DNA of 64,000 nt from Chrysoperla carnea (Eukaryota; Arthropoda; Insecta; Neuroptera; Chrysopidae), in contig NC_058340.1 in assembly GCF_905475395.1 (NCBI RefSeq), positions 68,302,181-68,366,180 on the forward strand, in the 5' to 3' direction. Numbering within the stretch: the first letter of the stretch is position 1; each line of letters opens with the position of its first letter. A model generated the notes under the pieces. The model had not been told where the DNA came from, made no database searches, and saw only the letters and a list, made by a program, of their open reading frames with translations. Below, piece by piece: positions 10,385 to 46,700 of the stretch. Both the position numbers and the translations under genes were made by a program.

Positions 10385-11480
10385 ATAAATTTTCTGTTTT
10401 TTTAAATAATGTCAAATTTTTTTATTCGAACATTTTATTTATTTTGTGATTCTTCAAATTGGTTGTTCGACTACGATTTCTTTTCTAATCAAATTCGACT
10501 CAATATTTTTAATTTTGGTAAATTTGTTTAATTGGTTTGATAGATTTTTATTTGGGTCCAAATTACCTTATAAACTGAGTTTTATCAAATTCCGAAATAT
10601 AAAATATTTTGCGAATTTTTTCGATTTTTTGTAATTGTTTTTAGGGGTACTCCTTTGAAAAAATCGAAAATTCGAAAAATGTTTTATATTTCGGAATTTG
10701 GTAAAACTCAGTTTATAAGGTAATTTGGACCGAAATAATCCAAAAATCGTACTTATTTAGCGATCGAGCTGATAGTTTCTGAGAAAATCGATATCTCGGA
10801 TCGATTTTTCCTATTATCTCGAAAAATACTCTTCAAAATACTAAATGAATTCGATTTTTGGGGTTAAAATTACCTTATAACGTGAGTTTTACCCAAATCG
10901 AAGGAGAAAATTTTTTTCGATTTTTTGTAATTTTTTTAAGGGGTTTTAAAAAAATCGAAAAATTCGAAAAATGTTTTATATTTCGAAATTTGATGAAAAT
11001 CATTTTATAAGGTAATTTGGACCCAAATAATCCAAAAATCGTACTTATTTAGCGATCGAGCTGATAGTTTCTGAGAAAATCGATATCTCGGATCGATTTT
11101 TGCCGTTATCTCGAAAAATATTCTTCCAAATATTAAATGATGATTTTTGGATTATTTGGGTTCAAATTACCTTATAAACTGAGTTTTATTAAATTCCGAA
11201 AAATAAATTTTTTTTCGAATTTTTCGATTTCTTCAAAGGGGTACCCCTTAAAAAAATTTAAAAAAATCGAAAAAAATTTTCTCCTTCCGATTTGGGTAAA
11301 ATTCATGTTATAAGGTAATTTTAGCCCAAAAAATTCAAAAGTCGAGTTCATTTAGTATTTGGAAGAATGTTTTTCGAGATAACGGCAAAAATCGATTCGA
11401 AATATCGAATTTCTCAGAAACTATTAGCTCGATCGCCAAATGAGTCCGATTTTTGAATTATTTGATTCCAAATTACTTTA
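10385..11480. repeat. Compound inverted/tandem dispersed repeat
   Basis: A block of degenerate 200-300 bp units built from the same phrases in both orientations. 'aatttggac(c)caaataatcc' with 'aaaaatcgtacttatttagc' and 'gatcgagctgatagtttctg' occurs at about 10720-10790 and 11010-11080. The reverse complement of the same phrases occurs at about 10530-10590, 11145-11200 and 11400-11460. Other shared phrases are 'ctcgaaaaatattctt' and 'ataaactgagttttat'. Degraded relatives lie at 5460-5850, 15650-16100 and 48360-48760. No coding capacity was found. Confidence 0.75.
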
Positions 11481-12690
11481 TGATGATCTAAAATGACATC
11501 AGAAAATATACACACGCTTTCTACTAGTAACCACGAGAAAAAAAAAACGGGATTAATCCCACACACATTACTTAAGAAAAAATTAGTACTGTTATACGAA
11601 AAGAATATTAATTATTATTTATATTAATTCTCTAATATGATCTGTCCACAAAAATTTATGCACTTATGAGAAACAAATTATTGTGCAACCAAAATAACTA
11701 ACTGTACATAACAAATTATTTTGATGTGATAATTTCGTAATATTAGCCAATGGTGATTAAAGTATTATGGGTTAATTGGTCACAACAACAAAAAACATGA
11801 TAATCATAAGGTCTAGTCAAAAATGTTAAAATTAATGAAAAAAGAAAAAATTTTTAAATTACTTCTAACTTAAATTATTAAAGCTACCAAATCAGTTAAT
11901 CGCCTTAAAGTGATCTAAGGTACTTACTTATTGCCTAAATCTAAATTGCATTATACACTTGTGGATTTACCCGCAAAAATTATGCATTGGTATAAGAAAT
12001 TATATTCATTTTGGGATTGAATAGCTAACCGCTAATCATGAGAAAAAAGGAATCGCAATTTTAAGAAAATATTTTCTGGTACCTTTTTCTAGAGACAAGA
12101 TAAAAAATAAATAAATCCAAAAATCGAAAACATTCGACTCATATCAAAGAATAATCAATTCGCCCGATTTTTATTAATATAAAACCGTTGAAAATTGAAA
12201 AAGCAGTTTTGGTAAATGATTTATGGTGTCCGCATTTTCCCGCTTTTGAAGTGTTTGAAAACTATATCACTTTTTACTAGAGTGAAGAAAAATTTCCCAG
12301 GTTTCCACTTTGCTAACTTATGGGAAAGTTTGTTTTTCATTTTTCGAACTAGCCACGATTTTGATAGCTCTGTTAATTATACCATACAATATACAATTGG
12401 GTACAGGCGTAAAAGGGGCCACAGGTGGTAAAAGCGTTAAAACATGGCCATTTTCTACTTTTTTTTAAAGGTAGCCTGAAAGTGTTTTTCCAATGAAGAC
12501 GGTATAATTAAAGGCCTATTAAATGGAAAAATCGAGTTTTCGAGTCGAAAATAAAATCAAATCTTACCATTGTTATTACATCAAAAATCAACAATTAGCC
12601 AATCTACGCGTCTATAAATTCACTTATTCAAAAAACGCTTTTATTTTCACTGAACTTAATTCAAAAAATAAAAATTCACACTAAACACAA
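11481..12690. other. Intergenic, no gene recognised
   Basis: No supported gene. TTTATT at 12640-12645 gives AATAAA on the minus strand, about 50 nt past the stop of the small frame at 12693-12851, and could be its polyadenylation signal. Confidence 0.4.
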
Positions 12691-18329: not shown

Positions 18330-18957
18330 TTAACAAAGAATTTCATTTACATAAATTTCTTGATATTCTGTTAACACATTTTCTACCAGTTTTTCTTCTT
18401 TAACTGCGTCAGTGAAAATTTCTTCTTTGATTATCAATTCTGTATGCAATTATATTTCAATTTCTTTCTTGGTTTTCAATTCTCTATGCACTTTTTCTTC
18501 AGTTTCTATATTTTCTCCTTAAATTGACAAAGAATGATATAAATAAACATGATATTCTCTCAGTTTTTCTTCTTTGACTGTGTCAGTGACAATTTCTTCT
18601 TTGATTATCAATTCTGTATGCAATTACTTTTCAATTTCTTCCTTGATTTTCAATTCTCTTTTTCTTCAGTTTCTATATTTTCTTCTTTAATTAACAAAGG
18701 ATTATATACATAAATTTCATGATGTTCAGTTGGCAAATTTTCTACCAGTTTTTCTTCTTTAACTGCGTCAGCGACCATTTCTTCTTTGATTATCAATTCT
18801 GTATGAAATTCTTTTTCAATTTCTTCCTTGATATCCAATTCTCTATTCAATTTTTGTTCAATTTTTATATTTTCTTCTTTAATTAACAAAGGATTATATA
18901 CATCAATTTCTTGATTTTCTGTTGACACATTTTCTATCAGTTTTTCTTCTTTAACTG
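18330..18957 (-). repeat. Tandem repeat array inside and beyond the THAP-gene C-terminus
   Basis: On the plus strand the marker 'tttttcttcttt(a/g)actg' recurs at 18941, 18749, 18564 and 18390, giving spacings of 192, 185 and 174 bp. On the coding strand each unit starts with KEEKL(I/V)EN and continues through VYNPLLIKEENI and (F)HTELIIKEE. The first unit and about half of the second are coding. The frame ends in the second unit at 18650, and the remaining units lie downstream as untranslated, decaying copies. Confidence 0.85.
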
Positions 18958-19995: not shown

Positions 19996-21008
19996 TTTTT
20001 TTGGCTTTAATTAAACTTATTCGTAAGAAACTCAGTCAAGATCACATTACTTTGACAGAACGCTAATTGTTTATCATGTTATTGTTTATAATCTCCATGA
20101 TTTACATTACATCTTAATTGACAGGAATGGTAGTCACAGACTTGATTAAATATAGACTGATAAAATAAATGAATCAATCAGTTCCGATAAAATTGTTATT
20201 TTTCACTCAAACTATTTCCATTCATTTGGGAATCGTTTGGGAGGATTTGGGAATATAATTTTAGAATTTAGGAATTATTAGTTTTCCTGTAATTAATGTT
20301 AGCAGGTAGGAAATTAAATCCACTTAATTTTTATGTTATTCGAAAGGAAATCATTTGGGAATTACGATAAACATGGTTACAGAGATTGGGAATGTATAAT
20401 TATTTAATTACACTTATTTTTTAGTTGATTTATAGGTTATGTTAATTAACCGTATACCTGAACCATTAATTGTTATATAGCAGTATGGCGCCAATATTCA
20501 AATATTATTGAAAAATTTTGTTTTTTTAACTTATTTAAATGTTAAGTTTTATTTTGCATTAAAACTGTTCTTATTCAATTGAGAATCGTTTGGGAAGATT
20601 TAGAAATATAACTTTATTATTTAGGACTGATTAGTTTTCATTTAATTAATTAGTTTTTCAAAGTGTAGGTATACTTAGCAGATAAAAAATTAAATTTTCA
20701 CCATTTTTAAGTTATTTGATAATAATTTACCCGGAGACTAATCTAATTTATTTGGGAATAGCCATACACACCAATACTTGTTTCTTGTTGTATATCGCCT
20801 CAGTGAACAGCTGCAGATATCTTATACTGGTTACAAGAGAATTAACTGATTGGACTAATTTTCGAATTCCCCAGTTTTAGTAAAAGGAAAACTATGGAAA
20901 ATGGATAGGTCTTTATGGAAGATCTCAAAACTAGCTTGCTAAATGAGAAATGAAAAAAATAAATAAAAACTATATTAATTTATTTGAACAATTAGTTTTA
21001 TTCGTCAT

Positions 21009-24000
21009 CTAAAAGAAACGTTTATATCTAACATAACGATTCAAGACTAAAAGAGAAGCAACAATTAAAAGACTAATTATCGCAACATGCAGATAGTATT
21101 TCCTGTAAGTAAAGAAAAATTTGTTAATTTTTTATTATGAGTATATCAACAAAAGGACCCCTTACAATTCTTATGCCTTTCGGCAAACTGTCTGAAATCG
21201 TACGCTACGTAGCTCATGAAAACTAAAACAACAGTTTCGATTGCTACAAAGTTCAAGGGCTTTGAGATTTTTAACCAAGAATTCGAGAAAGAATTCGAGT
21301 AAACTAGATAGGTGAACAATTTCCAAATTTTTTTGGCTTAATGAACATGGGATATTTCCTCCTCTTTTCAAGAACTAACATTTCACAAACTTCCAAAAAT
21401 TTTATTCGGAAGACGAAAGTTATTTTCCATACGTTTGATGCGAAGTCCTTTTAAAAAAACATTTCCTATGTAAGTAAATTCTGTCAAACTGGCATAGCTA
21501 TAATAAAGTCATAGGTAAGTACTTCAATTAGCTAAATTTGTAAAGTTTATTTTAACTTTTGTATGGTAATGCAGGAGCTTACAATTACTGATAGCCACGT
21601 CGGCTAAGCAGAGAGAATTGCTATCATTACAATAATGACCGTGATCAGAACATACTATGCAAATACAACGCGTATTTTTTGATAGGCTTTTGTCCACTCA
21701 GAATAAATCGGTTGAATAAAAGTTTCAAATAATAAATCATAAAATGTAGATAACAAAATACAAAGTTAATTTTAATAAAATTTAAGGATCATTAATATTT
21801 TTAGATAATAATTTTCACAAAACTATGCATCCGGTCACGTGACAGCAAACACAACTCAGATGTACTTTCATGGTACTACGTCACATCATATGAAAGACTA
21901 TGTAAGCTTACAAATACAAACACATATAACTTGCAAATTCTTGTAAAGATTCATATACATAAATGAATGCATGTCATGAATTGATATCATACAGGACGCC
22001 ATTTCATCTACACTGGTTTAGGACTAAATTTGAATTGGTTTTTTAAAATGCAAAATACATAATGTAAATAGTTTTTTTTTTTTTTTTAATAATACTTTCT
22101 TGGTGTAAATCAGATGCTAATGTAACATATAAACCATTTTTTTAAATTTAGGACAAAAGCCAAATAACCAATGCTAATAATAATCATGCAATAATTATAT
22201 AGAAGTACATCAAAGTAACATCTTACATTTTTAAATTAAACATTCGTTTGTTAAACGTTTCTTCTGAAAAGTTTTTATCTTTTAACAGATATCGTATTAT
22301 GCCATCTCTTTGCATTTTCAATTGATCCGAAATTATACATCCAGAATAATCTACCTGTAAATTTTACATAAAATTGATGCAATTATATTTTAAATTATCT
22401 GTTTCGATTTTATACTCACCGAGAACTTATCAATATCCTCTGGTTTCAATATTGCATGTAAAGATTTAAAATTATCATTTTTAAATGTCCATTCATTTAA
22501 TGTGAACGGTGCAAGCTTCATATTTGAATAAAATACTCTACGATATAATTTAAATAAACTAAAACAATATATTTACTTTTGAGAAATGAAAAACGGGTTG
22601 ATTTGTTATTTTAAAATGATGTAAATGCTAATAATAATTCTTAGTTTTGAGGGTTGATTTTGTATTCGAGAACAAAACTCGCCTGGAAACTGAATAGTTT
22701 TTAATAATCGACTTAAAAAAAAACTTGAATTTTAATTACTTACTTTAATCTCTGATTACTTATTTTCAATAAAACACTTAAAAATATTGCTGGAATCAAG
22801 TGTAGTGTTACAAAATAAAACCAATACATATATTTATTTGGCGTAGAGACACAAAACGGATACCATAATAGTTGATTCGGTGGATTTTTTAATATTATAC
22901 TCGAACCGATATTAGTAAACAATCTATTACTCAGATTTACAAAATCACTGGTTGATGAGTTAATTACTAAGCTACAAAAATAATATTATAAGTAATGTTT
23001 CGTTTGGTAGGTACTTGTAGAGTACTTGTTTTGTTCCGTTGAATCGAAATTTCGACGTTACCCAGACGGTTAATTTTGGTCCAATTTTTATAATAAGATT
23101 CTTGCAACATTGCAAGGTATAATTTTTTGCTTGAATCTAGCAAATTATTCGTTTTAGTAGAAAAGTTACTAGAAAATTCTATTTTCAAATACCATTGATG
23201 ATTTCATATCCATGGGTGTATAAAAAAAAAGGAGGGAAGAGATTAACATTTATTCTCAGATGAATATTTTGCAAGTTTCAAACAAAAAGTCCAATTTTTT
23301 GGGATTGATAATCTTGGAATTTTAATTTAGCAGCTCAAAAAATATAAAGGTACCTAAAGTTGTGTTGAGCACCTCGACCGATACGCTTACTGTCAGCAGC
23401 TACCTACTTTGGGAAAACATAAGGAACGTTTTATGGTACTTCTCAGTGAATTTATAGTTACAGATATTAAATTTTTACCATTTATTACGATCAGTTTGTT
23501 CTAAAGCCTTATACCATGCTGATGTTATCATTCCTTTTATTGCAATGTCAACAGGCATCCAATCTACCTTCGTATCATCATTTGCATAAACTGCATGAAT
23601 TACGCCAGTCATAATTCCTGTAATTAGACCCATTGGTCCATTGTAGTTATCAATCCATCCCGGCATTGGTTCTTTTTCCGAACCAACCACTAAGGCAAAA
23701 TATAATTATTTTATTCAAAAAAAAGTCTTTCAGTTATAAAATAAATTAAAAATTTTTACTGTTATATCAAATTTGAATTAAGTTTAAATGGAAACTTAAA
23801 TAATTTTCTGGTTAGCCTTCTGGGAAATGAGGGTATAATATTCTCGTTTTGAGCGCTTCTCGAATGAGGACTGTTCAATTATTATTGAGAAAATCATTTT
23901 ACCATGTGATAGCTTAAATTAGAACTACGATAAAAGCCTTGAAGTGTATCTGGGTTTCAGTAGGCGTTGGATAAAAGATATATATAGAAACCGTAGTAAT

Positions 24001-24345
24001 TTAAAACAATGATGTTCAAATATATAAAAAAACTATATAATTAACAAGTGAAAATTACAAAATTTAAAAAACCCCCGACAAATCTTTCGGGTACGTTTAA
24101 TTATGTTTTAATTGCTAAACTCGCAATTGAAACATAACAAATAATAGTCTTCATTAAATTACCTTTTTTCTTAAAGCCTTTTCCAAACTGAGCCGATTTT
24201 GGAGATCATCACTAATTTTTTAGTTTTTTCGGGTACGGAACCCTCAACTCGCACTTGAAACATAGCTAAGAACACTCTCCATTAAATTGCCTTTCAAACG
24301 ACAAAAAAATCAAAATCGGTTCATCCGCTTAGGAGCTAAGATGCC

Positions 24346-24396
<51 letters not shown>

Positions 24397-27038
24397 CACA
24401 TAGCGGTCAAACTTATAACACCCCTTTTTTTTAGTTCGGGGGTTAAAAAAGTCCACTCTTTTAATGGTCTAATTATTCCGAAGACCACTATTATTTTCTA
24501 TAAAGATTAAAGCTTGCTTTTGATTGCTTCACGTCATTAGTGGTAGACTTGACGTCATTAAGGTTGTCATTTTGACAACTAAGGCTTTATGCCATTAAGG
24601 TGGATGATAATCAGAATACCAAGTAAATTCGCTCGTTTTTGCTACAATCAGATTGTTTTTTACAACCAAAAACCCATAACATTAAAAAATCTCAAATGAA
24701 ATAATAACATAAAAATTTACCGACTGATGGACGAAAAATAACTGTTGATACATCTTCACAACTTTCGAAAAGAAGTTCTTCAGCAAGATTTTTGGAAAAG
24801 GTATACGTGTTCGGATATTTATTTAAAATTCTAAAATTAAACGAATTAATTAAATTCATATATAATGCTCAATTCGTGACTCCAAGATATCATAATTTTT
24901 GCAGTTGTAAATAGGAATTTTTTTTCGGACATTAAATAGTAAAATGGCGTGCCATACAGCAACAGTCACAAAAATTTTTCTTGAAAATTTATAATCATAT
25001 GTAACTATTGGATTTTTTATGTTTTTTTTTTTTTTTTTTTTTTTTTTTGTTATCTTGAACGTTTCCTATTTTATTTTTTGATATCTTTGTATTGTTTTAA
25101 ATACGAGTTGGTTAGGCTGAGTTTGTCGACTATAGAGTAATTGGTTGGGTTCTGAAGTTCTTAGTGCTTGCGTTCAAAAATGATACTATTACAGAAAACG
25201 GACATATTATCGTAAACTATATACAAAAGTTAAAGTTAGAATTTTACATGCATATATTTAAATAAAAAAGATATGCGATGCGCGCGTGTGTATTCCGCGA
25301 TTTCGCTAGGACTAGAATTAAGTGATATGTTACCATTCTCTCCAATTGCCATTACATTGTTATCTATAGTACTTTGGAGTCGCGAATTTGAGCAAACTTT
25401 ACAAGTAACATACTTTTCTTCAAGAAAATTGAGCACATTTTCATCCATAATTTCAGCTGCTTTAATCATAGTTTTCCAATCCGTTGTCGCCTTATAAACC
25501 TTTTCTTCGATTGTGTCCACGCCTTTATCGACATTACAATAAGTGGTTGATGTATATAGAAAAACCTAACCACAGAAAAAGAACTTTATAATTCGCTATC
25601 AAAGAAGTAGTCAATACGGTGTGTTGCCACAATATTATCTTGTGGCTGCTTACTATGACATGTAAAATTTAGCATTATGTACATATATTATATAATATAG
25701 GTATTACTTGGAACTAAGGATAGCTAAGTTAGTAGAAGCGTGGCTATATAATTGGTTATTTTAGTGATTACTCAGTTCGAATCCAGCAGCAGTGTAATCA
25801 GTCACATGCGGAAAAAAAAACTATGGTTAAAAATATGGCCGCTTTATAATTGTACTGTTTCCTGCTTTAGTCAATATATACTAAAATATACTTTAAAAAA
25901 AATAAAAATTCGTGTAATAATAGCTACGTCCAGACGAAGTTAGCCATACTGAGGCGAAAGATAGTAAATGCACCTGATGCATCTTAAAGAAAAAATTGGA
26001 TAATCTTGGGCGTTTTCCGAAATATACATCAGTATACTGGCCATTAGTAATGACGTCATGAATTGCCATATTGTGCTGGTGATAAAATTGTGACAAATAA
26101 CTATTTAGCCGGCTGTGTAAGCATAGATTAGATTGTGTGAAATAATAATAAAATAATAATTGTAAATTATGTTTCAACAACATATTGCCGTAATAGCCAA
26201 CACTTCCATTCTTATAAATAGACTTCAGTTAAAATTTGGCACTGACTGAAGTGAAGCCAATGTTACTGAAGGTTCAATATAGGTGTTTATTATAATTGTT
26301 TACCTTTAAATTTTGCATTTGTTTAAGTATTTTTAACATTTCTCTAGTTCCTCGTGTATTAATTAAAATAGCATCCTTCAAAGAATCATCAAATCGAACA
26401 GATGCTGCCACATGGAATACAATGTTTATTTCATGAATTATAAATTCTAAATCAGAATCAGATAAACCATATTCTAGTTTGCTGATATCTCCTTTAATTA
26501 CTTTTACTTTTGATAATGATTCCGGATATTCTTCTTTTAATCTGTTAAATAACTAAAAGAAAGGGGAAATGAATACGTATATAAGTGCAAGAAGAAGTGG
26601 AACAAGTCAGGTAAAAACAAATTTTCAGTAAAATGAGTGATTAAACATTCCTCAGGCTTACGCTTTATCACAAATCTGTTATTCCTAATAAGCATCAGTA
26701 TATTTTTCCAACATATCCTTACTATTCATAGGAATATCATGAAAACTTACAGGTATATTAAACATTTTATTTAATCTTTCTTCATCCGTATAATTTTTCT
26801 TCGAACGCAGTAATAAATAAATGCCCTTAATTTTTGGACATGAACGAAGTAATTTTTCAATTAAAACTTTGCCCATAAAGCCAGTACCGCCCGTAACCAG
26901 AATGTTTTGATCAGCATAAAATTCACAAATTGATGGTGCATTATTTGATAACTGTGATAAAGTTACTTTATCCACAAACATTTTCTTCGTTGGCTTAACG
27001 ATATTATCTTCAACAATGTAATTGTTATTATAAAACAT
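21009..27038 (-). CDS. FAR: Fatty acyl-CoA reductase, left palindrome copy
   Basis: Nine exons on the minus strand: 27038-26751, 26552-26304, 25565-25414, 24830-24721, 23689-23479, 22971-22744, 22558-22420, 22354-22227 and 21102-21009. All junctions are GT-AG and in phase, giving 532 residues, the usual length of insect FARs. The N-terminal Rossmann NAD(P)H-binding domain has TGGTGFMG at 49-56. The catalytic YxxxK is Y239-TFS-K243 in NKYPNTYTFSK. The C-terminal FAR_C domain follows (NQLLWYP, LAPFTLNEWTF, IIRYLLKDK). A last short exon encodes a hydrophobic anchor (YYLHVAIISLLIVASLLVL), as in membrane-bound FARs. These enzymes reduce fatty acyl-CoA to fatty alcohol using NADPH, for waxes, cuticle lipids or pheromones. 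The partner gene is at 28631-34706. Intron 4 (1,031 bp) holds a dispersed repeat absent from the partner. Confidence 0.93.
24062..24450 (+). repeat. Dispersed CAGA-tail repeat in reductase intron 4
   Basis: Two partial, nested copies of the family seen at 8771-8990: 'cgacaaatctttcgggtacg' near 24075 and 'tttcgggtacggaaccctca' near 24226. They are followed by 'gcacttgaaacatagctaag', a (GACA)n tract of about 50 bp at 24347-24396 and 'cacatagcggtcaaacttat'. The right-arm gene has only a 121-bp intron at this place, so the insertion probably followed the duplication, although loss there cannot be ruled out. Confidence 0.8.
25022..25048 (+). repeat. Poly-T tract in reductase intron 3
   Basis: A run of about 27 T residues in the left-copy intron 3. 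This intron is 583 bp against 69 bp in the right copy. On the gene strand it is a poly-A, which may be the tail of a retroposed insertion, though I recognise no element body. Confidence 0.6.
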
Positions 27039-27324
27039 TTTGGAACACCCGCAACCACAGTCATATATGTATACACCTGATAACTTATCAGAATCAGTCC
27101 ATGTTCTACAATGTCAATGTTTTTTATATGCCAAACGCAAGCATTCTTATTTGGCTTTGCAAATATTATTATTGTGTTCTTTTTTCATGTCATTGTAGAG
27201 TTGTTAATAATAATGTTCGATTTCCTTCGGAAATTCGCTAAAAACATTTAATAAAAGGTCAATTAAAAAAAAGACGTGGTGATGATTATTTAGAAATGAA
27301 TTTATGTATAATTTTTTTTTTTAA

Positions 27325-27453
27325 TGTAAATTAATTAATAAATTTATTCAATTAAATGACGAAGATCAAGTATTGTGTGATGTGAATATAAAATCAGAAT
27401 TAACAATAGCTGAAAATATTTTCGATGCACTCAATATGAATGCAACATTGTAA
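27325..27453 (+). pseudogene. C-terminal coding remnant near palindrome centre (left copy)
   Basis: An open frame ends with TAA at 27451 and is followed by AATAAA signals at about 27471 and 27490. It encodes 42 residues including KFIQLNDEDQVLCDVN and LTIAENIFDAL. The pattern of an acidic tail followed by a short helix recalls the C-terminal end of pogo/Tigger (jerky-like) transposases, but the match is from memory and weak. No upstream exon or acceptor was found. An identical mirror copy lies at 28216-28344. Confidence 0.35.
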
Positions 27454-27555
27454 TCCAATTTTAAAAAAACGAATAAATTTTATTAAAAAAATAAACTTTT
27501 ATTTTCTATTTATGGGACATACGCGGGATAAGGATTTCGGAGGAAGTAAAACTAA

Positions 27556-28113
27556 GATGAGTAACCGCACCCTAGCAGTTTCGAGAATGCCGTAAAGATG
27601 CCGTAATTATTCGTTATTATTATAATTTGGCAACCAAATTATAACCAAATTATAACGGTAAATATACGGCATTGCGTAAAAGCCGAATAATTACGGTATC
27701 TTTACGGCATTCTATCTATACGGCAGCTATCGTACTCTCCCCAGGATGAGTAACCGCACCCTAGTTTCGAGAATGCCGTAAAGATACCGTAATTATTCGG
27801 CTTTTACGCAATGCCGTATATTTACCGTTATAATTTGGTTATAATTTGGTTGCCAAATTATAATAATAACGAATAATTACGGCATCTTTGCGGCACTCTC
27901 GAAACTAGGGTGCGGTTACTCATCCTGGGGAGAGTACGATAGCTGCCGTATAGATAGAATGCCGTAAAGATACCGTAATTATTCGGCTTTTACGCAATGC
28001 CGTATATTTACCGTTATAATTTGGTTATAATTTGGTTGCCAAATTATAATAATAACGAATAAATACGGCATCTTTACGGCATTCTCGAAACTGCTAGGGT
28101 GCGGTTACTCATC
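27556..28113. mobile_element. Three fold-back (MITE-like) units at the palindrome centre
   Basis: Three units of about 185 bp: left (27556-27740, inverted), middle (27741-27928) and right (27929-28113). Each starts or ends with GGATGAGTAACCGCACCCTA or its complement and repeats ATGCCGTAAAGATACCGTAA. The middle unit is itself an inverted repeat with arms 27741-27799 and 27870-27928 (few mismatches) around a 70-bp non-palindromic spacer. The symmetry point of the whole 15.3-kb palindrome, 27834/27835, falls in that spacer. No transposase is present, and the terminal sequence is unlike families I know. Confidence 0.85.
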
Positions 28114-28215
28114 TTAGTTTTACTTCCTCCGAAATCCTTATCCCGCGTATGTCCCATAAATAGAAAATAAAAGTTTATTTTTTTAATAAAATTTATTCGT
28201 TTTTTTAAAATTGGA

Positions 28216-28344
28216 TTACAATGTTGCATTCATATTGAGTGCATCGAAAATATTTTCAGCTATTGTTAATTCTGATTTTATATTCACATCACACAATACT
28301 TGATCTTCGTCATTTAATTGAATAAATTTATTAATTAATTTACA
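28216..28344 (-). pseudogene. C-terminal coding remnant near palindrome centre (right copy)
   Basis: Mirror image of 27325-27453, with the same 42-residue frame and the same downstream AATAAA. It is a consequence of the palindrome. Confidence 0.35.
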
Positions 28345-28540
28345 TTAAAAAAAAAAATTATACATAAATTCATTTCTAAATAATCATCACCACGTCTTTT
28401 TTTTAATTGACCTTTTATTAAATGTTTTTAGCGAATTTCCGAAGGAAATCGAACATTATTATTAACAACTCTACAATGACATGAAAAAAGAACACAATAA
28501 TAATATTTGCAAAGCCAAATAAGAATGCTTGCGTTTGGCA

Positions 28541-28550
28541 TATAAAAAAC
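28541..28550 (+). promoter_or_regulatory. Candidate TATA box of right reductase
   Basis: TATAAAAAAC lies 90 bp upstream of the reductase ATG at 28631. The same motif is mirrored upstream of the left gene at about 27119-27128. Transcription start is not established, and in AT-rich DNA the motif may be chance. Confidence 0.35.
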
Positions 28551-28630
28551 ATTGACATTGTAGAACATGGACTGATTCTGATAAGTTATCAGGTGTATAC
28601 ATATATGACTGTGGTTGCGGGTGTTCCAAA

Positions 28631-31600
28631 ATGTTTTATAATAACAATTACATTGTTGAAGATAATATCGTTAAGCCAACGAAGAAAATGTTTGTGGATA
28701 AAGTAACTTTATCACAGTTATCAAATAATGCACCATCAATTTGTGAATTTTATGCTGATCAAAACATTCTGGTTACGGGCGGTACTGGCTTTATGGGCAA
28801 AGTTTTAATTGAAAAATTACTTCGTTCATGTCCAAAAATTAAGGGCATTTATTTATTACTGCGTTCGAAGAAAAATTATACGGATGAAGAAAGATTAAAT
28901 AAAATGTTTAATATACCTGTAAGTTTTCATGATATTCCTATGAATAGTAAGGATATGTTGGAAAAATATACTGATGCTTATTAGGAATAACAGATTTGTG
29001 ATAAAGCGTAAGCCTGAGGAATGTTTAATCACTCATTTTACTGAAAATTTGTTTTTACCTGACTTGTTCCACTTCTTCTTGCACTTATATACGTATTCAT
29101 TTCCCCTTTCTTTTAGTTATTTAACAGATTAAAAGAAGAATATCCGGAATCATTATCAAAAGTAAAAGTAATTAAAGGAGATATCAGCAAACTAGAATAT
29201 GGTTTATCTGATTCTGATTTAGAATTTATAATTCATGAAATAAACATTGTATTCCATGTGGCAGCATCTGTTCGATTTGATGATTCTTTGAAGGATGCTA
29301 TTTTAATTAATACACGAGGAACTAGAGAAATGTTAAAAATACTTAAACAAATGCAAAATTTAAAGGTAAACAATTATAATAAACACCTATATTGAACCTT
29401 CAGTAACATTGGCTTCACTTCAGTCAGTGCCAAATTTTAACTGAAGTCTATTTATAAGAATGGAAGTGTTGGCTATTACGGCAATATGTTGTTGAAACAT
29501 AATTTACAATTATTATTTTATTATTATTTCACACAATCTAATCTATGCTTACACAGCCGGCTAAATAGTTATTTGTCACAATTTTATCACCAGCACAATA
29601 TGGCAATTCATGACGTCATTACTAATGGCCAGTATACTGATGTATATTTCGGAAAACGCCCAAGATTATCCAATTTTTTCTTTAAGATGCATCAGGTGCA
29701 TTTACTATCTTTCGCCTCAGTATGGCTAACTTCGTCTGGACGTAGCTATTATTACACGAATTTTTATTTTTTTCAAAGTATACACCGTAAAGCAAATAGT
29801 TGGTGGCGCTGCTATAGGCTATAGCACAAATGTAAGTTTTAAAAGAAAGTAATAAGAGTAAGATAAAGATCTAAGCAAGTTGTTAGAGTGGATAGAGAAG
29901 CTCACAACAATCACTTTCTGCTACACAAGCGCCATTCTGCTCAATTTTAGAACTGTTATTTTCTGTTTTCAGCTAGACACTTTTACTTTGACCCGTATTT
30001 ATAAATGTCCTTTTTACCTCTACCCTCCATAATATGACTGATTACTTTTTTGATCGAGAATTATAAAGTTGTTTTCTGTAATTAGGTTTTCCTGTATACG
30101 TCAACCACTTATTGTAACATCGATAAAGACGTGGATGCAATCGAAGAAAAAGTTTATAAGGAGACAACGGATTGGAAAACTATGATTAGAGCAGCCGAAA
30201 ATATGGATGAAACGGTGCTCAATTTTCTTGAACAGAAGTATGTTACTTCTCAAGTTAACTCAAATTTAGCATTATTTATGAATTTAAATAATTCTTGTAA
30301 TTTTAGAATTTTAAATAAATATCCGAACACGTATACTTTTACCAAAAATCTTGCTGAAAAACTTCTCTTTGAAAGTTGTGATGATATACCAACAGTTATT
30401 TTTCGTCCTACAGTCGGTAAATTTTTAAGTTATTATTTTAATTTTTAACATTTTTATAGACTTTTGACAATTGATTTTATTACTCCAAATGCTTCTGAAG
30501 ATGTTTTTAATAATAAAATAATTATATTTTGCCTAAGTGGTTGGTTCGGATAAAGAACCAATGCCTGGATGGATTGATAACTACAATGGGCCAATGGGTC
30601 TAATTACAGGAGTTCAGACTGGCTTACTTCATATAGTTTTAATAGACGGTAATAAGGAGGTAAATTGGGTGCCTGTTGACATAGCAATAAAAGGAATGAT
30701 AACATCAGCATGGTATAAGGCATTAGAACAAACTGATCGTAATAAATGGTAATATTTTAGAGCATGTATGCTATAGATTGTCATAATAATTGTTGAGTAC
30801 GTTAGCGACTCATTCGAGATGCACGGGATAACTTTATCAATTACAAAACTTCTTATGTTTTGAATAATTTTATGTTCTAAGACTTCTATCTGAGGATAAA
30901 TGTTATAGGAAGTTTAGTATTATAGTATAGTATAAAATTTGTAAATACCTTTATCCCATACAAAATGGTATCGCTTTCTCCTCGGTACACCTCATGTGAA
31001 TGACATCATTGTAAAAGTATTTAAAAATAAAATTTTCCGGTGACTTTTCTTCCCAAGCGAATCTTTTGCCAGATTGAAGCAAAAATAAAAGTATAAAGTC
31101 AATGCCATTTTTCGACTTGATAATCTTGAAATTTCGATTGAACGACAAAAAAACAAAAAACTGCCAAAAAATAACAGTCACTAAATAACTATACATATAC
31201 AGGCCGTTCTGTTATTGACTGCAGATCGTCGACCTACAGAATAAGCTCATAAAGACGAAGGAAAAAGTTATGTACCAATTTTGGATCTGAGGCCTAGTTT
31301 GCGAGATAATTAACAAAATAAATTAATATAATATTAATAAAAAATAAATAACTTTATCGAATCCCAGTTCAATAAAATTTTGAAGGCTGGTATTGTATTA
31401 TTACATAAACTGAGAAATAATAATAATAATAAGAGAAGAAGAATAAGTAGAGTGTGGTAAATAGTACATAGATACAACCATTCCCGCTACTATATTATAT
31501 CATATGCATACAATAAACAAAAACTGATGATGAGATTTAGTCAACTATTTAAACAAATACAAACAATATTATGCATTTTTTTGAGTGTTTTTCATATAGG

Positions 31601-34142
31601 ACCACCTCCTACCTGCCTTCAATATTTTATTGAACTGTGATTCGATAAAGTTATTTACTTTTTATTAATATTATATTAATTTATTTTGTTAATTATTTCG
31701 CAAACTAGGCCTCAGATACAAAATTGGTAAATAAATTTTTCCTTCCTCTTTATGAGCTTATTCTGTAGGCCAACGATCTGCAGTCAATAACAAAACGCCC
31801 TGTATAACGAAACATTACTAATACTATAATTTAATCTTTGTAGCTTAGTAATTAACTCATCAACTAGTGATTTTATAAAATTCAATAATAGCGTAATGAG
31901 TGATCTTGGTGTCAAAATATTAAACAAAAATCCACCGAATCAACTACTATGGTACCCATTTTTTTTTCAAACGACAAATAAATATTTATATTGGTTTTAT
32001 TTTGTAACACTGCACTTGATTCCTGCAATATTTTTAAATGTTTTATTGAAAATAAGTAATCAGAGATTAAAGTAAGTAAAAAGAGTATATTTTAATTAAA
32101 AAATTAAAAATAATTAATAACTTTGCTGCAATCGTAAAAAAAAAGTTTTTTGGCGAAGCCGGTAGGAATGCCACATTCAACAAAAAAAATCATAACAGAT
32201 AGATGATTCACCAAGGACCCTGATCTTGAAAGTTAGTTAAAGGTATACTCTATTTCGTTAAAGTTAAATGATAGAAGAAAACTTTAAATTAGAAAGGTGG
32301 TCATTAGATAATAAACTAACATTTTTTGTTAAAAATATTTTTACCAAATTGTATGTAAAAATTTGACTATACATCAAATGTTTTGGAATTTTTAGCTCAG
32401 TTTGTTCGTGATGTAGGGTTTTTGGGATGCTCTTAAACAACTAGAAATAGAACTCAAAATTTAAAATTCGGAATCAAAATTTAATTGTTTAAGTAGATTA
32501 TAACATTCACCTTCTGTGGAATCTATTAATACAGCGAAAAATCATTCAAACCAACAATATTCGTGTTTTTATTAGAAACACATTTCTAATTTAAAGTTTC
32601 TTTGCTTTACCTGTAACCTGTAACTTCAAAGTCAAAACCCAATCCAAGTGATGCCTTCATCTTGAACAAATGCTGCGCTCACCTTCATCTTGAACAAATT
32701 TTACATGAAATAACATTTTTCTGTAGCTAACTATAGTGTTGGAAGAAAAACGTCATCAGATAGTGGCAGAGGAATTCTGGAACATACTGTAGACAACGTT
32801 AACGCAATTAATAAAAATACGACTGTGACATTCCTATTAAACAAATTCCACATTAAGTTCTGTTCTTGAAAACAAAACAAACTTTCAAAACCGAGAAATA
32901 TTATTAGCATATCATTATTAAATAAACAATTCAAACCGTTTTTTAATTTTCAAAAGTAAACATTATTTTAGTTTATTTAAATTATATCGCCGAGTATTTT
33001 ATTCAAATATGAAGCTTGCACCGTTCACATTAAATGAATGGACATTTAAAAATGATAATTTTAAATCTTTACATGCAATATTGAAACCAGAGGATATTGA
33101 TAAGTTCTCGGTGAGTATAAATTATAAAATCACAACAGATAATTTAAAATATCAATTTTATGTTAAATTTACAGGTAGATTATTCTGGATTAACAGTTTC
33201 TGAACGATTTGAAACGAAAAGAGAAGGCACAATACGGTATCTGTTAAAAGATAAGAACTTTTCAAAAGAAACATTTAATAAACGAATGTTTAATTTTAAA
33301 ATGTAAGATAATACATTATTTTGATGTACTTGTATACAGGGTGTTCTGTTATTAACTGCAGATCGTCAGCCTACAGAATACTACTCATAAAGACGAACAA
33401 AAAAGTTATTTACCAAATTTCGATATGAGCCCTGATTCGGAAATTGTGGCAATTGAAAAAATAGAAAGATTTATGAATTCACAAACCTATCAAATTCAAT
33501 AAATTAGTAGGTGTCACTTTCTGCAGTTAATAACAGAACGCCCTGTGTAAGTCTACCATATGCAATTCTTCCATGACGCATTGACTATGCTCAGAAAATA
33601 CACTTGGAGTGACGGCCGCGGCGTTCACTTTAAAAGGCGAGCTATATGATCGTAGTATTTTATGATCACGGCCATTGTATTGTAATGATTGGTTCCTGCC
33701 AACAATCACTTCTAAGAGTAATTGTTGGTTCCTGTATTACCATAGGAAAATAGAATTACCTTTATAAATTTAGCAAACTAAGCAATACTCGCATGTTAAC
33801 TCGAAAATTAACTATCTAAGTGTATTGAAATTTGACTTACTTATGGTTGTATAATAGCTATGCCAGTTTTCCAGAATTTACTTACATAGGAAATATTTTT
33901 TGTACAATAGTTGAATCATAATGGTCTTGATTTAAGTCACTATGTCATGTAAAGATTGTGAATGAGTATAAAATGTAAAAGGACCCCACATATTTCGTCT
34001 GTCTTATATACTTTTTGAAAAATTGAAAATGTTAGTTCTTGAAGTGTATAGAGCAAAAGTCTCTATGGCCATAAAGTAAAAAAAAAGATACTTTGTCATG
34101 GGGACTGTTGACAGAAGTGAAATTTTAAAACTTTGGAAGAAC

Positions 34143-34173
<31 letters not shown>

Positions 34174-34706
34174 TAATTAACTATAGTATAGATAATTAAA
34201 ATTTCATAATTTGCAAATTGGAATTATTAACGTATGTATAATAAACTATTATAAATAACAATAAAAAGCAACAACACATAGTGTTTTCAAGCGGTGACTC
34301 ATCTTAGAACTAAGTGTACTCAATGTTGCTTAACTTCACTGATTGGGCGAGAATCGTTGTTTTCAATGTGGTATGGTGAAGGTAACGGTGGCGATTTGGT
34401 GACGATGACACGAGTTCCATGATTTTTATTCACATAAAAAGTGCTCAACGTGCCAAAAGATTTTTTCACTTCAAAAATTTGAAACTTGTTTACCTACCTA
34501 TAGTTTACCTATAGTTTTTCTCGATTTCTCGATTCTCCATTGTACGGGGTCCTTTGTTGATACACACATAATAAAAAATTAACAAATTGTTCTTTACTTA
34601 CAGAAAATACTATCTGCATGTTGCTGTAATTATTCTTTTAATTATTGGTTCTCTTTTCGTCTTAAATCGTTATGTTGGAAAATTTATGAATAAACGTTAT
34701 ATTTAG
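28631..34706 (+). CDS. FAR: Fatty acyl-CoA reductase, right palindrome copy
   Basis: Nine exons: 28631-28918, 29117-29365, 30086-30237, 30307-30416, 30538-30748, 31844-32071, 32972-33110, 33175-33302 and 34604-34706. All are in phase with GT-AG borders, giving 535 residues. It has Rossmann motif TGGTGFMG (49-56), catalytic Y239-TFT-K243, the FAR_C domain (NQLLWYPF, LAPFTLNEWTF, IRYLLKDK) and a C-terminal hydrophobic helix (HVAVIILLIIGSLFVLNRYV) encoded by the last exon. If the exon 8 donor is ignored, the frame stops at 33306, which would give a shorter protein without the anchor. Exons 1-2 (residues 1-179) are identical to the left copy. Exons 3-6 differ at many sites, for example GVQTGLLHIV against GIMTGVIHAV. 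Exon 7 is again identical at protein level. Expected reaction: acyl-CoA + 2 NADPH to fatty alcohol at a membrane. Confidence 0.93.
31200..31802. mobile_element. MITE with long terminal inverted repeats in reductase intron 5
   Basis: A 603-bp element flanked by TA on both sides (31198-31199 and 31803-31804). Its ends are CAGGCCGTTCTGTTATTGAC and the complement of CAGGGCGTTTTGTTATTGAC. The inverted repeats extend about 190 bp inward ('cagaataagctcataaag', 'atctgaggcctagtttgcga') with few mismatches. TA target duplication and long TIRs fit a Tc1/mariner-type non-autonomous element. The left-arm intron 5 lacks it: 507 bp against 1,095 bp. Confidence 0.88.
33337..33547. mobile_element. Shorter MITE of the same family in reductase intron 8
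   Basis: A copy of about 211 bp with ends CAGGGTGTTCTGTTATTAAC and 'gttaataacagaacgccctg', preceded by TA (33335-33336) and followed by TGTA. Only the outer 60-70 bp of the left TIR match the 603-bp relative; the middle is different. It is absent from the left-arm intron. Confidence 0.82.
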
Positions 34707-35493
34707 ATAAAGAATTCAATTTTTATGCGAGAAGTGGGCATGGTTCTGGTATAACGTTAAATAATTTTTTGTGGTGGTGTTTTGTGGTAGTTGTTGAGCG
34801 AAGCGGACGAGTAGCTGTTAGTCTTTTGTATAATTAACACAAATTGTTAAAAATATATTATAAATTTAAAAATTGATTTCAATTCCAAAATAATTACTTC
34901 CGGTATAAATTATTTTGCATTTCGACATTTTCCACTTTGATTTCCATGTAAATGTCTCATGTAAATTATTATCAAATAACGTAAAAATGGTGGCTTGAAA
35001 AACTTATTAATTACATGAAAACTAATCAGTCCTAAATAATAAAATTATATTCCTAAATCTTCCCAAACGTTTTCCAATTGAATAAGAATAGTTTTAAGGC
35101 AAAATAAAACTTAACATTTACATAAATTAAAAAATAAATTTTTCAGTAATATTTGAATATTGGCGCCATACTGCTATATAACAATTAATGGTTCAGGTAT
35201 ATGGTTAATTAACATAACTTATAAATCAACTAAAAAATAAGTGTAATTAAATAATTATACATTCCCAAACTCTGAGACCATGTTTATCGTAATTCCCAAA
35301 TGATTTCCCTTCGAATAACATAAAAATTAAGTGGATTTAATTTCCTACCTGCTTAAACTAGACGCTGAAAAAAGAATCATTAATTACAGGAAAACTACCA
35401 ATTCCTAAATTCTAAAATTATATTCCCAAATCCTCCCAAACGATTCCCAAATGAATTGAAATAGTTTGAGTGAAAAATAACAATTTTATCTGC

Positions 35494-36016
35494 TAAGTAT
35501 ACGGAACTGAATAAATCACTCTTGTTTTGGCGAAAGTGTACTAATCTCTATATAACTAGATAGAGGATCTGTATAAAATAAAATAAATAAGTGTTTAATA
35601 TTGAAGCATTCCCAGCGTTCCAGAATAAGTAGCTGAGAACTAAATGAAACCATTGTACGAACACTTGCACTGTTTCATTTTTTTTACTTATATTCACTCA
35701 TTTGGAGGAATATCCCGTCTCAAAAACCTAACCCGTCTAATGAATGGCTGGCTTGTAGATTGATAGTTCGGTGATAAAGACTTTTATTTCCTCTACACTT
35801 GGTTAAAATATCCGACATTTTCAAGATAATCAGTTTATAGTTGTTGGCAAATAAAACCAAAAATTTTTGTCTAGCGAATACCAAATAAACCCATATCCAC
35901 GATGTCATATAAAAATTTTGAATTTAATGTGGGGATAAAAACCATTACTGGAAAATAGGAGTGCTGGAAAGGGGTAAAATTAAAATTTTTGACTAACCAA
36001 GTAGATGGTTCATTTG
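35494..36016. other. Intergenic, no gene recognised
   Basis: Unique-looking AT-rich DNA beyond the right palindrome arm. The last 8 bp (36009-36016, TTCATTTG) are the left target-site duplication of the hAT element that follows. Confidence 0.45.
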
Positions 36017-43738: not shown

Positions 43739-46700
43739 TCACACATAATTTTCACCAGCTCTCGGGGTTGATGAATTCACTACACTAATCGGTGATTTAA
43801 TTTCATTATTCTTCCCCTTTTTATTCTTCTTACCACTGACATTATTCAAATAATTGGCCGTTGAATGATGGTAATGTGGATCCCCTGGTACAGTTGACGA
43901 TGATCCCGATGGTGTACCCACTGTTGATTCATTGGTGGATGTTATATCGTTACAGTTGTTGTTCTGGGATATGAACGAGGACATCTCCATGACATTTTGA
44001 TTCTATGGAACCACACGGCATCATCATCAGGTAATTACTATAGGTAGATATGTTATTCAGGAGTTAGAAAATAAAATACATTGCTTGTTATGTGTGTTAA
44101 AAGCAGATGTTACCAACCAAACAAACAAAAACAACTTTTTAAACCCTCACATAGAAAAAAACCAACACAAACTTCACAAATTTACTTCCTCGAATACTAG
44201 GTTAGACTAGCTTAGAGTGGTTGTACTGGGATGGATCATACTTAGACCAAAAGGTCCGTTGTGATACCGAACAAGGATTTGCCCATTCCCGCCCACTACT
44301 CCATGAACCATTTAGAGCTGTTTAAGAACAGCAGGAGTGCTTTGGCGTCAACAGGCTTAAGGCCGGATAGATCGTCAAAGAAACGCGGGCTCAAGTGAGT
44401 CCATCTCTTCATGGCAAGAGCTGGACAGTGCTGCAATAATCGTGATACACTGTCAGGCCCAGGTGTTCGTGGTGCCTGCCCAGTGTCCTGTAATAGCCGC
44501 AATAAATTTGTTTATAGAGGCACTTTAAAGCGATATAAGATCTTCGGAAAGCCTACGATTGTACTTAGATCATATTTGTGTGTTCTTCCTTCCATCTAAG
44601 ATTGACCTTTTTAAGATACCCTCAATCTTGAGCAGCTTGTCGTACTACCTTCTAGCATGCTCGTCGTACTACCTTTGAGGTTTTGTAAACCAAGCTAAAG
44701 GAATTTAGGGCTAGATGCCCGACTGTTTTGGTAATTCACGGCGTATCAGGGCCTATTGGCTAGTTCAACAATGTTGTAAAATTTCGAATATATTGTAAAC
44801 AAAGTAGAAAGATGACACTCCCGTTTTGGATAAAATCAATTTCTAAGGCAAATTTGACTCGAAAGTTACGAAGTTTCGAAATTTTACTGGGAAATATTTC
44901 GTTAATTTTAGACTATATTCGAGAAAGCAAGTTTTGAGAAACACAATTATACCACAAGACAATTTTTTTTTTTTAAATAAGAAAATACTTAGTTGAAAAT
45001 ATAAGACGTACAATTTGAAAAGCAAAGCTGGCACAGACAGTGAGATAGAGATAGGATGATCAGAGGAGGACCCTTCTCACCTTGTCCTCATCTGCTGTTG
45101 CATTCGCCAATGGATTTGGTGTGATTGTTAATTTCGGACCAGGTGGTGGACAACCATTATGCATTGCACGCCGTGATTTTGAATAATCTTTTGATTCAGC
45201 TTGAATATGATGACTTCCATCGTTTGAATTACGCTTATCTTCAATATCCCCTGGAAAAAATAAACTTTAAAATAAGATACATACAAGAAAAATTGAACTC
45301 TCATAGCCTCAATTATAGCAAATTTATACTTTCGTAAGAACATTTCAGGGGAATTATAGAACTTGGTTTCCTTTTTGTAGGAAAACTAGGTTTTACTTAC
45401 CTTGACCAGTAATATTTTGAGCTTTTTTCTGTCGATACCGCTTACAAACAACAAGCGCTAATATTGCTCCGGTTAAAAGTGCAATTCCACCCACAGCTGC
45501 TCCAATAATGACATATAATTGTAATTTACTTGACTTGCTACCTATCGTGGCACCTGTTGTAGTTTCGTCTCGCGTTAACGATGTTTCCGTAACAGGAATT
45601 ACGGTTTGTTGCGTTAATATCACACTAAAATCACTGCCAGCTCCTGCATTGAAACTTTGTAATTTAAATTCGTAAATTTTACCAGGTACTAAATGACTGA
45701 TAATACACGATCGAGCTGATGCATTATCAACGGTTTCTTTGATATAATCGTTTGCAATCGTTAAATCACGATAATTGATGTAGAAGCCTTCTATCGATAC
45801 ATTGCCTTCATTGTGGAGCTAAAAATGATAAAAATATATTAGCGAAAATTTCCACAAAAATTTGTTTCAAGTGACTTACATCCCAATAAATTCGAATTGC
45901 AGTTTCATTAATAGCTTCAGTTCGGGTTAATACTGGCGTTGGTAACGGGTTTCGACCAGTAAACGAGGAACGTTGTAAATGAAATTTCGCTGAATTTGGA
46001 CCTAATTTATTATCGTCATTTGTGTAAACAGCAGCAATTCGAAATTTATAAATTGAATCCGTATACAAATTATCCACTTCGTATGTGTTTACATTTGGAC
46101 CAATATCTGCATTTACCGTATCCCATTTGGAGGATTTTTCTTGTAATTGTGCCATACGCTCAGGATCATTAGAACTCACTTCCCGATATTGAATTTTAAA
46201 TAATCGTATCCCTAATCCATCATTTTGTGGCACATTCCATCGAACCATCACCGATGTATCGGATAATCGTGTAATATTTGGCTTGGATGGTGGAATCATT
46301 TTCATATTTTTCTCTTTTCGTCGATTTTTATTCTTACCTCGATGAATTTTACCGTTTGAATGATTTTTTCGACTATTTGCTGGTGGTCCAGGTGTTTGAC
46401 TCCGCGTATCTGACTCTAGATAAGCATCTCCACCAGTTTTTGGTTTCGGGTACACCGTTAAGAGGGATATACTAAATGCATTACCAGCAATATTCGAGGC
46501 GAAACATTGGATCGTACCAGCATGGCGTTTTTCTACCGGGTTTATGTAAATTTTATTACCAATTGCTTCGATATTGCTATCGTTTAGAACGCTACGACCA
46601 TTATTTACCCACTGAATCGTAGGTTCGGGGATTCCTTTTACTGTGCATTCTAATTCGAGACTATCACCTTCGGTTGAATTCTCAGAATTTGGTCCAGATA

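Follow-up and report, generated by a model that had tools for sequence, protein, structure and literature searches.

The 64,000-nt stretch of Chrysoperla carnea DNA examined here (C4:68302181-68366180, hereafter the window; positions without a chromosome label are counted within it) carries two complete fatty acyl-CoA reductase genes standing head to head. The 15.3-kb stretch that holds them is quite probably a composite Pack-MULE-like foldback transposon that carries two complete host genes and has a palindromic centre that is still converting. This reading rests on sequence, namely the gene structures, a family of terminal inverted repeats (TIRs), the homology of a second block on C6 and conflicting trees, and from these we infer transposase-driven movement, the direction and mechanism of conversion, and the function of both genes. 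The genome searched comprised 559 Mb, and its chromosome-scale sequences were labelled C1-C6. Of two telomere-type repeats sought in it, six units of TTAGG gave 133 + 190 matches and six units of TCAGG gave none.

Results

The right-hand gene on the + strand was named gene A (C4R), and the left-hand gene on the − strand was named gene B (C4L).

28631-34706, + strand: fatty acyl-CoA reductase gene A, 9 exons, 535 aa
28631-28918, 29117-29365, 30086-30237, 30307-30416, 30538-30748, 31844-32071, 32972-33110, 33175-33302, 34604-34706, + strand: exons of gene A
21009-27038, − strand: fatty acyl-CoA reductase gene B, 9 exons, 532 aa
27038-26751, 26552-26304, 25565-25414, 24830-24721, 23689-23479, 22971-22744, 22558-22420, 22354-22227, 21102-21009, − strand: exons of gene B

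Both genes were recovered by a splice-constrained search, which required AG acceptors; GT donors were present at 8 of 8 introns in each gene. A preliminary description of this DNA had proposed two complete, divergently transcribed nine-exon reductases with intact frames, and the splice-constrained search, the open frames (535 and 532 aa) and the Pfam domains all agreed with it. The exon lengths were 288, 249, 152, 110, 211, 228, 139 and 128 nt, followed by 103 nt in the right gene and 94 nt in the left one, and the ATGs at 28631 (+) and 27038 (−) were 1,592 bp apart, which accords with the shared centre of about 1.59 kb reported earlier. NAD_binding_4 (1e-74, 3e-74; residues 48-319) followed by Sterile (2.2e-18, 1.2e-17; residues 393-485), both above the curated cut-offs, was detected in the two proteins. 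This is the domain order of insect-type fatty acyl-CoA reductases, to which genes A and B belong by domain content. The catalytic residues mentioned previously could be read in the translations as TGGTGFMG and YTFTK/YTFSK, which we take to be the cofactor motif and the YxxxK active-site motif of these reductases, respectively.

Genes A and B were identical in exons 1-2 (0 of 537 sites differed) and differed at 2 to 39 sites per exon in exons 3-8. Over the 353 codons of exons 3-9, 125 nucleotide and 72 amino acid differences were counted (dN 0.109, dS 0.209), and the intron lengths were strongly unequal, for example 69 versus 583 nt and 121 versus 1,031 nt. When each gene was compared with its C6 counterpart over exons 3-9, dN/dS was 0.27 for gene A (29 nucleotide changes) and 0.48 for gene B (20 changes); these values, based on few changes, suggest constraint on both genes, which are presumably functional. 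The reductase family is large in this genome, with 145 exon-level matches in a domain search in which 126 of 168 candidates were scored. A 197-bp inverted pair (31196-31392 / 31610-31806; 93%) with the look of a small transposon lies in intron 5 of gene A.

A TATA-like box precedes each gene.

27122-27132, − strand: TATA-like box of gene B, GGCATATAAAA, 94 bp before the ATG
28537-28547, + strand: TATA-like box of gene A, GGCATATAAAA, 94 bp before the ATG

The box occurred in the same form in 7 of the 14 upstream regions compared (C4R, C4L, C6L, C6R, C3b, C3c and C3d; the C3 genes are described below). It had been suggested that the two genes may share regulatory DNA. Since each of them has its own identical TATA-like box, duplicated promoters would fit better than one common promoter, and a single shared promoter is disfavoured.

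The preliminary description had recognized the gene pair within a palindrome; it had missed the transposon termini at both outer ends and the near-match target-site duplication beside them.

20171-20179, no strand: putative 9-bp target-site duplication, left copy GAATCAATC, 8/9 match to 35509-35517
20180-20759, − strand: left TIR of a foldback/Mutator-like family, 580 bp, 12-nt deletion near the outer end, outer end AGTTCCG
34952-35508, + strand: right TIR, 557 bp, outer end ...CTGCTAAGTATACGGAACT
35509-35517, no strand: putative 9-bp target-site duplication, right copy GAATAAATC, 8/9 match to the left copy

As in a Pack-MULE, the two TIRs, flanked by the 8/9 duplication, enclose both genes; they face outward and lie within 350 bp of the last exons. 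The left TIR was 90.8% identical to the right TIR and 90.6% identical to the TIR of a complete element on C6. Its inner edge (20759/20760) is the point where collinearity with C6 stops, while the inner edge of the right TIR (34951/34952) is where homology to five TIR-less C3 loci stops. When random 9-mer pairs were drawn from the window, 110 of 200,000 reached a match of 8/9; in four other complete copies examined, the target duplications matched at 9, 9, 9 and 7 of 9 positions.

The terminal patch is a dispersed repeat: 34995-35495 had at least 40 near-full copies (92-95%) on all of C1-C6. With at most 3 mismatches allowed, a 30-base pattern of the TIR end was found at 70 + and 71 − sites genome-wide, amounting to 141 ends, and a reversed-pattern control gave 0. 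In the family copies the outer end of the TIR was conserved and similarity then broke off, and TIR positions 12-113 matched positions 385-486 at about 79-83%, so that long TIRs with internal sub-repeats and conserved outer ends, the hallmarks of foldback elements, were all present. Target duplications of 9-11 bp mark the Mutator-like superfamily; the duplications found here were 9/9 in three of the four other copies and 8/9 at the reductase unit. On the strength of its long, sub-repeated TIRs and its 9-bp duplications, we assign the family to foldback elements that are probably Mutator-like. In the available text of PMC4079207 and PMC8277862, foldback elements have target duplications of 8-10 and 9-10 bp, respectively, and the former assigns them mostly to the Mutator superfamily. 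Furthermore, all four TIR ends beside the reductases on C4 and C6 terminate in GGAACT, which was found in only 9 of 94 zero-mismatch ends among those listed, three of these being reductase-side ends (p = 6e-4).

Some other places of the family may be recorded. Two facing ends lie 15.4 kb apart at C6:15556009-15571429, about the size of the reductase unit, and five ends in the same orientation with a spacing of about 250 bp lie at C5:63082205-63083237, as if the TIR had been tandemly amplified. The MULE transposase profile PF10551 had 14 matches in the genome, 12 of them in the last 1.7 Mb of C1 (C1:138278958-139763879; C1 is 139,979,878 nt long).

A sister block containing both genes in reverse orientation was found at C6:14708421-14731884. 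By counterpart, gene A corresponds to C4R and C6L, and gene B to C4L and C6R. Window positions 20760-34992 were collinear with C6:14731884-14709326 on the reverse strand, interrupted by breaks, and the identity was 95.36% over nine long blocks (13,457 columns, introns included) out of 20 collinear blocks, TIR and element blocks being left out of this figure. On the right-hand side the homology passed through the TIR and ended at its tip (35508 = C6:14708421), so the A-side TIR junction is common to C4 and C6. All four reading frames of the two blocks were open. The head-to-head arms on C6 were non-identical (94.9% and 97.3%), and a complete element was nested in intron 2 of the gene B counterpart, the right gene (C6:14718906-14722806). 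This element has 1,579-bp arms that are 99.94% alike and a perfect 9-bp target duplication, which gives it a recent look. Over the C6 flanks compared (4.4 kb on the left side of the block and 1.7 kb on its right), C4 and C6 were unmatched at the boundary; the left flanks shared a 505-bp match of 79%, about 5.8 kb outside the left TIR, and a 47-bp match elsewhere.

C3 carries an array of related reductases, in 170 kb of which no TIR match was found; it thus supplies the gene relatives without TIRs that are expected of Pack-MULE cargo, and its homology to the unit stops at 34951. The translation of C3a stops at aa 14, and C3g has no GT donor after exon 2. C3d was left out of the translated comparison, its 145-158 differences being an artefact of an exon 1 slice that was out of frame, and inverted matches under 300 bits were left out of the C3/C6 comparison. 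At C3:5843123-5844703 and C3:5880032-5881612, a lone exon 1 stands head to head with a full gene, and the centres contain a stretch resembling the upstream region on C4 as well as a portion of the central element of the C4 unit. Because these head-to-head starts have similar centres, the head-to-head start may be older than the transposon unit. The trees had no root outside these genes, and C3 is not established as the source of the block. The two places (C3:5843123-5851440 and C3:5880032-5888690) are near-identical and about 36.9 kb apart, and at both the reading frame of the full gene starts with GTG instead of the ATG of the others.

The inner part of the C4 unit is an inverted repeat.

25887-27834, − strand: core inverted repeat, left arm, with the gene B promoter, exon 1, intron 1, exon 2, the start of intron 2 and half of the central element
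27835-29782, + strand: core inverted repeat, right arm, with the gene A promoter, exon 1, intron 1, exon 2 and the start of intron 2
27556-28113, no strand: central nested foldback-like repeat, resembling a miniature inverted-repeat transposable element, with self-complementary and tandem matches; it holds the unpaired symmetry axis

The preliminary description treated the 15.3 kb as one palindrome whose arms measured about 7.65 kb; a near-perfect inverted repeat was confirmed only for 25887-27834 / 27835-29782. BLASTN of the window against itself returned one long inverted match (25887-29782; 98.7% over 3,906 columns; arms of about 1.9 kb), which contained a mismatch-free run of 1,710 bp (28064-29773 versus 25896-27605). 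The arms differed at one base (28063/27606) and at several positions closer to the axis, and their similarity stopped sharply at 29782, just beyond which 81 of 303 positions matched without gaps. Beyond the core, BLASTN detected six exon-centred patches (exons 3, 4, 5, 6, 7-8 and 9; 84-91%) and, between the outer arms, one terminal patch of about 0.5 kb (90.8%). A single palindrome with 7.65-kb arms was rejected, as outside the core the arms align just at exons and TIRs. In an end-to-end alignment, 20 of 27 blocks between 20717 and 25814 were at 38.8-48.6% identity; this alignment misplaces some exons, and the BLASTN patches were therefore relied on instead. It is thus misleading to describe the stretch as a long palindrome kept intact; what is present is an inverted gene pair of older date with a recently homogenized centre, not a 7.65-kb palindrome that escaped decay. 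The spacer of about 70 bp reported earlier was confirmed, the 35 positions beside the symmetry axis matching at 11 of 35. Partial copies of the central repeat occur on C1, C2, C3, C4 and C6.

The core and the outer exons gave conflicting groupings of the four genes. In exons 3-9, 101 sites grouped the counterparts (C4L C6R | C4R C6L), against 3 and 1 for the alternatives, so homogenization did not extend over the whole coding region. By contrast, the neighbours grouped together (C4L C4R | C6L C6R) at 7:0:0 sites in exon 1-intron 1-exon 2 and at 23:0:0 sites over the whole core arm (1,466 gap-free columns); neighbours closer than counterparts, as in concerted evolution, were thus found in the core arms only. 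Private changes in the core numbered 29 in C6L and 16 in C6R, with 0 in both C4L and C4R, and pairing of the homologues was rejected there by the approximately unbiased (AU; ~1e-9) and Shimodaira-Hasegawa (SH; 0.006) tests. Two of the compared trees were the same unrooted tree, for which the AU value is meaningless, and the log-likelihood gap (at least 292 to the others) and the site counts were used in that case. This conflict indicates gene conversion within the locus. The 0 differences in 1,710 bp bound the divergence since homogenization at 0.175% (95%), compared with about 4.6% between C4 and C6.

The best inner tree was ((C4L,C4R),C6R), with an AU value of 0.99; the other trees with a C4 pair had values of 0.0165 and 0.002 (the C6L variant). 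Grouping of the C4 pair with C6R points to gene B overwriting gene A as the most likely direction. The C6 arms, too, are similar (95-97%), in contrast to the widely diverged outer parts of A and B, suggesting that the core was probably homogenized before the two copies separated and again afterwards in C4. C6L is similar to the C3 genes, and its intron 1 is 107 nt, as in C3a and C3h; owing to this likeness it may have a history of its own.

Elsewhere in the window, a tandem array with a 315-bp unit (5.1 copies, 94% matches) occupies 49389-50986, and a self-complementary repeat cluster at 10548-11481 (74-84% inverted matches) is another foldback-like place. A 379-aa open frame at 45808-46947 (−) encodes two immunoglobulin domains and one fibronectin III domain, and a 192-bp tandem repeat at 18561-18957 overlaps a 173-aa open frame rich in KEE/KEEN motifs.

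Discussion

We propose that TIRs of a foldback family came to flank a head-to-head reductase pair and that transposase supplied in trans moved the block. Genes A and B, between TIRs of about 0.56-0.58 kb, would have entered the C4 site together in a single insertion; the 9-bp target duplication made by that event would later have acquired a one-base change, and a sister copy of the block resides on C6. The inverted centre would serve as a repair template from arm to arm; after C4 and C6 separated, one arm would have overwritten the other across 1.7 kb or more, with B the most likely donor and A the recipient. Promoters and N-terminal halves, including the start of the cofactor-binding domain, are now identical in the two genes, and the remainder differs.

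Several observations weigh against a composite transposon with a converting centre. The target duplication at the C4 unit, at 8/9, falls short of 9, and none of the 14 PF10551 matches lay between any TIR pair of the family among the 100 of 141 ends listed. On C6, the B-side TIR piece (14731994-14732304) is reversed, with no outward TIR there, and a target duplication was not found, the sole exact match of the expected right end being on C3; for these reasons the C6 copy, over the sequence compared, is not an intact TIR-to-TIR unit. The C4 right TIR and the C6 left TIR matched at 94.6% and 96.7% in two pieces, no closer than unrelated copies (about 95%). A paralogous empty site with joined flanks was searched for in the genome and none was found; in that search the left flank was otherwise unmatched, and part of the right flank was a dispersed repeat. 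The 100% identity of the core might reflect assembly collapse. As to the direction of conversion, the SH test does not reject the alternative C4-pair trees (0.13 and 0.12), and C6L may have been altered by C3-type genes.

An ordinary segmental duplication between C4 and C6, on which TIR fragments landed independently as bystanders, appears unlikely. The abundance of the family (141 ends), the complete element inside intron 2 of the C6 right gene, the reversed B-side TIR and the missing C6 duplication would all suit it. It sits poorly, however, with both C4 TIRs facing outward less than 350 bp from the last exons, with C6 homology that ends at the TIR end 35508, with boundaries devoid of flank homology other than the distant 505-bp match, with the A-side TIR junction common to C4 and C6, and with the 8/9 duplication at C4. 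It is quite improbable that the core is an assembly artefact, in which the real right arm differs and the assembler put one arm on both sides; such a collapse would also yield 1,710 bp of identity abutting sharply different sequence, but the arms differ at 28063/27606 and nearer the axis. Because the head-to-head layout recurs on C6 with non-identical arms, the arrangement itself is unlikely to be artefactual, but the core's perfect identity could be. Purifying selection alone, keeping the 5′ halves identical without conversion, is hardly credible and was rejected: constraint is real in exon 2, where none of the six pairings of the four genes shows a difference (0 of 249), but the C4 arms are also identical in the upstream region, in intron 1 (0 of 198) and at the start of intron 2, all of which differ between C4 and C6, and selection leaves the 23:0:0 agreement of neighbours against counterparts unexplained.

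Each layer of the composite unit has precedent, and the combination is new as far as the literature searched shows. Like the reductase unit, the Pack-MULE Ssk-FB4 of Drosophila melanogaster is a foldback element with long TIRs and 9-10-bp duplications that carries a near-complete host gene at several chromosomal places; it contains one gene, lacks about 200 bp of the 3′ untranslated region and is polymorphic in populations (PMC8277862, available part). The unit described here, known from a single assembly, differs in having two complete nine-exon genes head to head, a length of 15.3 kb and a homogenized core. Ising's composite transposable element (TE146) of D. melanogaster carries white and roughest. 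In that element, too, host genes were mobilized between foldback elements, although it spans hundreds of kilobases and was followed in laboratory stocks (PMC6431247, available part), whereas the 15-kb reductase unit is deduced from sequence. In the palindromic Hsp70 and Amylase pairs of Drosophila, inverted neighbours are likewise more alike than counterparts through ectopic gene conversion; Amy conversion is reported to be confined to the coding sequence, the reverse of the promoter-plus-5′-end tract seen here, and no mobile unit is described in the available part of that source (PMC3924832). Unlike in those pairs, neighbour likeness between the reductases is limited to the promoter, exons 1-2 and inner intron 2, and exons 3-9 keep the older grouping. 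In bumble bees, an expanded fatty acyl-CoA reductase family has also been tied to transposons, but the evidence is transposon enrichment near the genes (PMC6361591, available part), whereas here one transposon encloses a gene pair. In the literature searched, which left out most subscription papers, we found no case combining Pack-MULE cargo, a foldback unit and a converting pair, and no fatty acyl-CoA reductase pair in such a unit.

According to the available part of PMC6431247, Pack-MULEs take up host genes in full length only in exceptionally rare cases, and those in one study were at most 7 kb long. Measured against this rarity and size, a 15.3-kb unit with two complete nine-exon genes would, if true, be a strong case. 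Insect reductase families are large in many species, and transposons have been blamed mainly for lying nearby (PMC6361591, available part); here, a specific transposon encloses a reductase pair, and the block occurs twice. The conflict between the core and the outer exons allows a direct question: are the 5′ halves held alike by conversion as the 3′ halves diverge? It is a tentative and rather doubtful idea that the unit acts as a two-gene cassette with a self-copying palindromic centre, in which conversion would equalize the promoter and the cofactor-binding start while the rest diverges, and transposition would spread the cassette between chromosomes. If this were true, mobile DNA would be a direct driver by which a family of lipid or pheromone enzymes spreads and diversifies.

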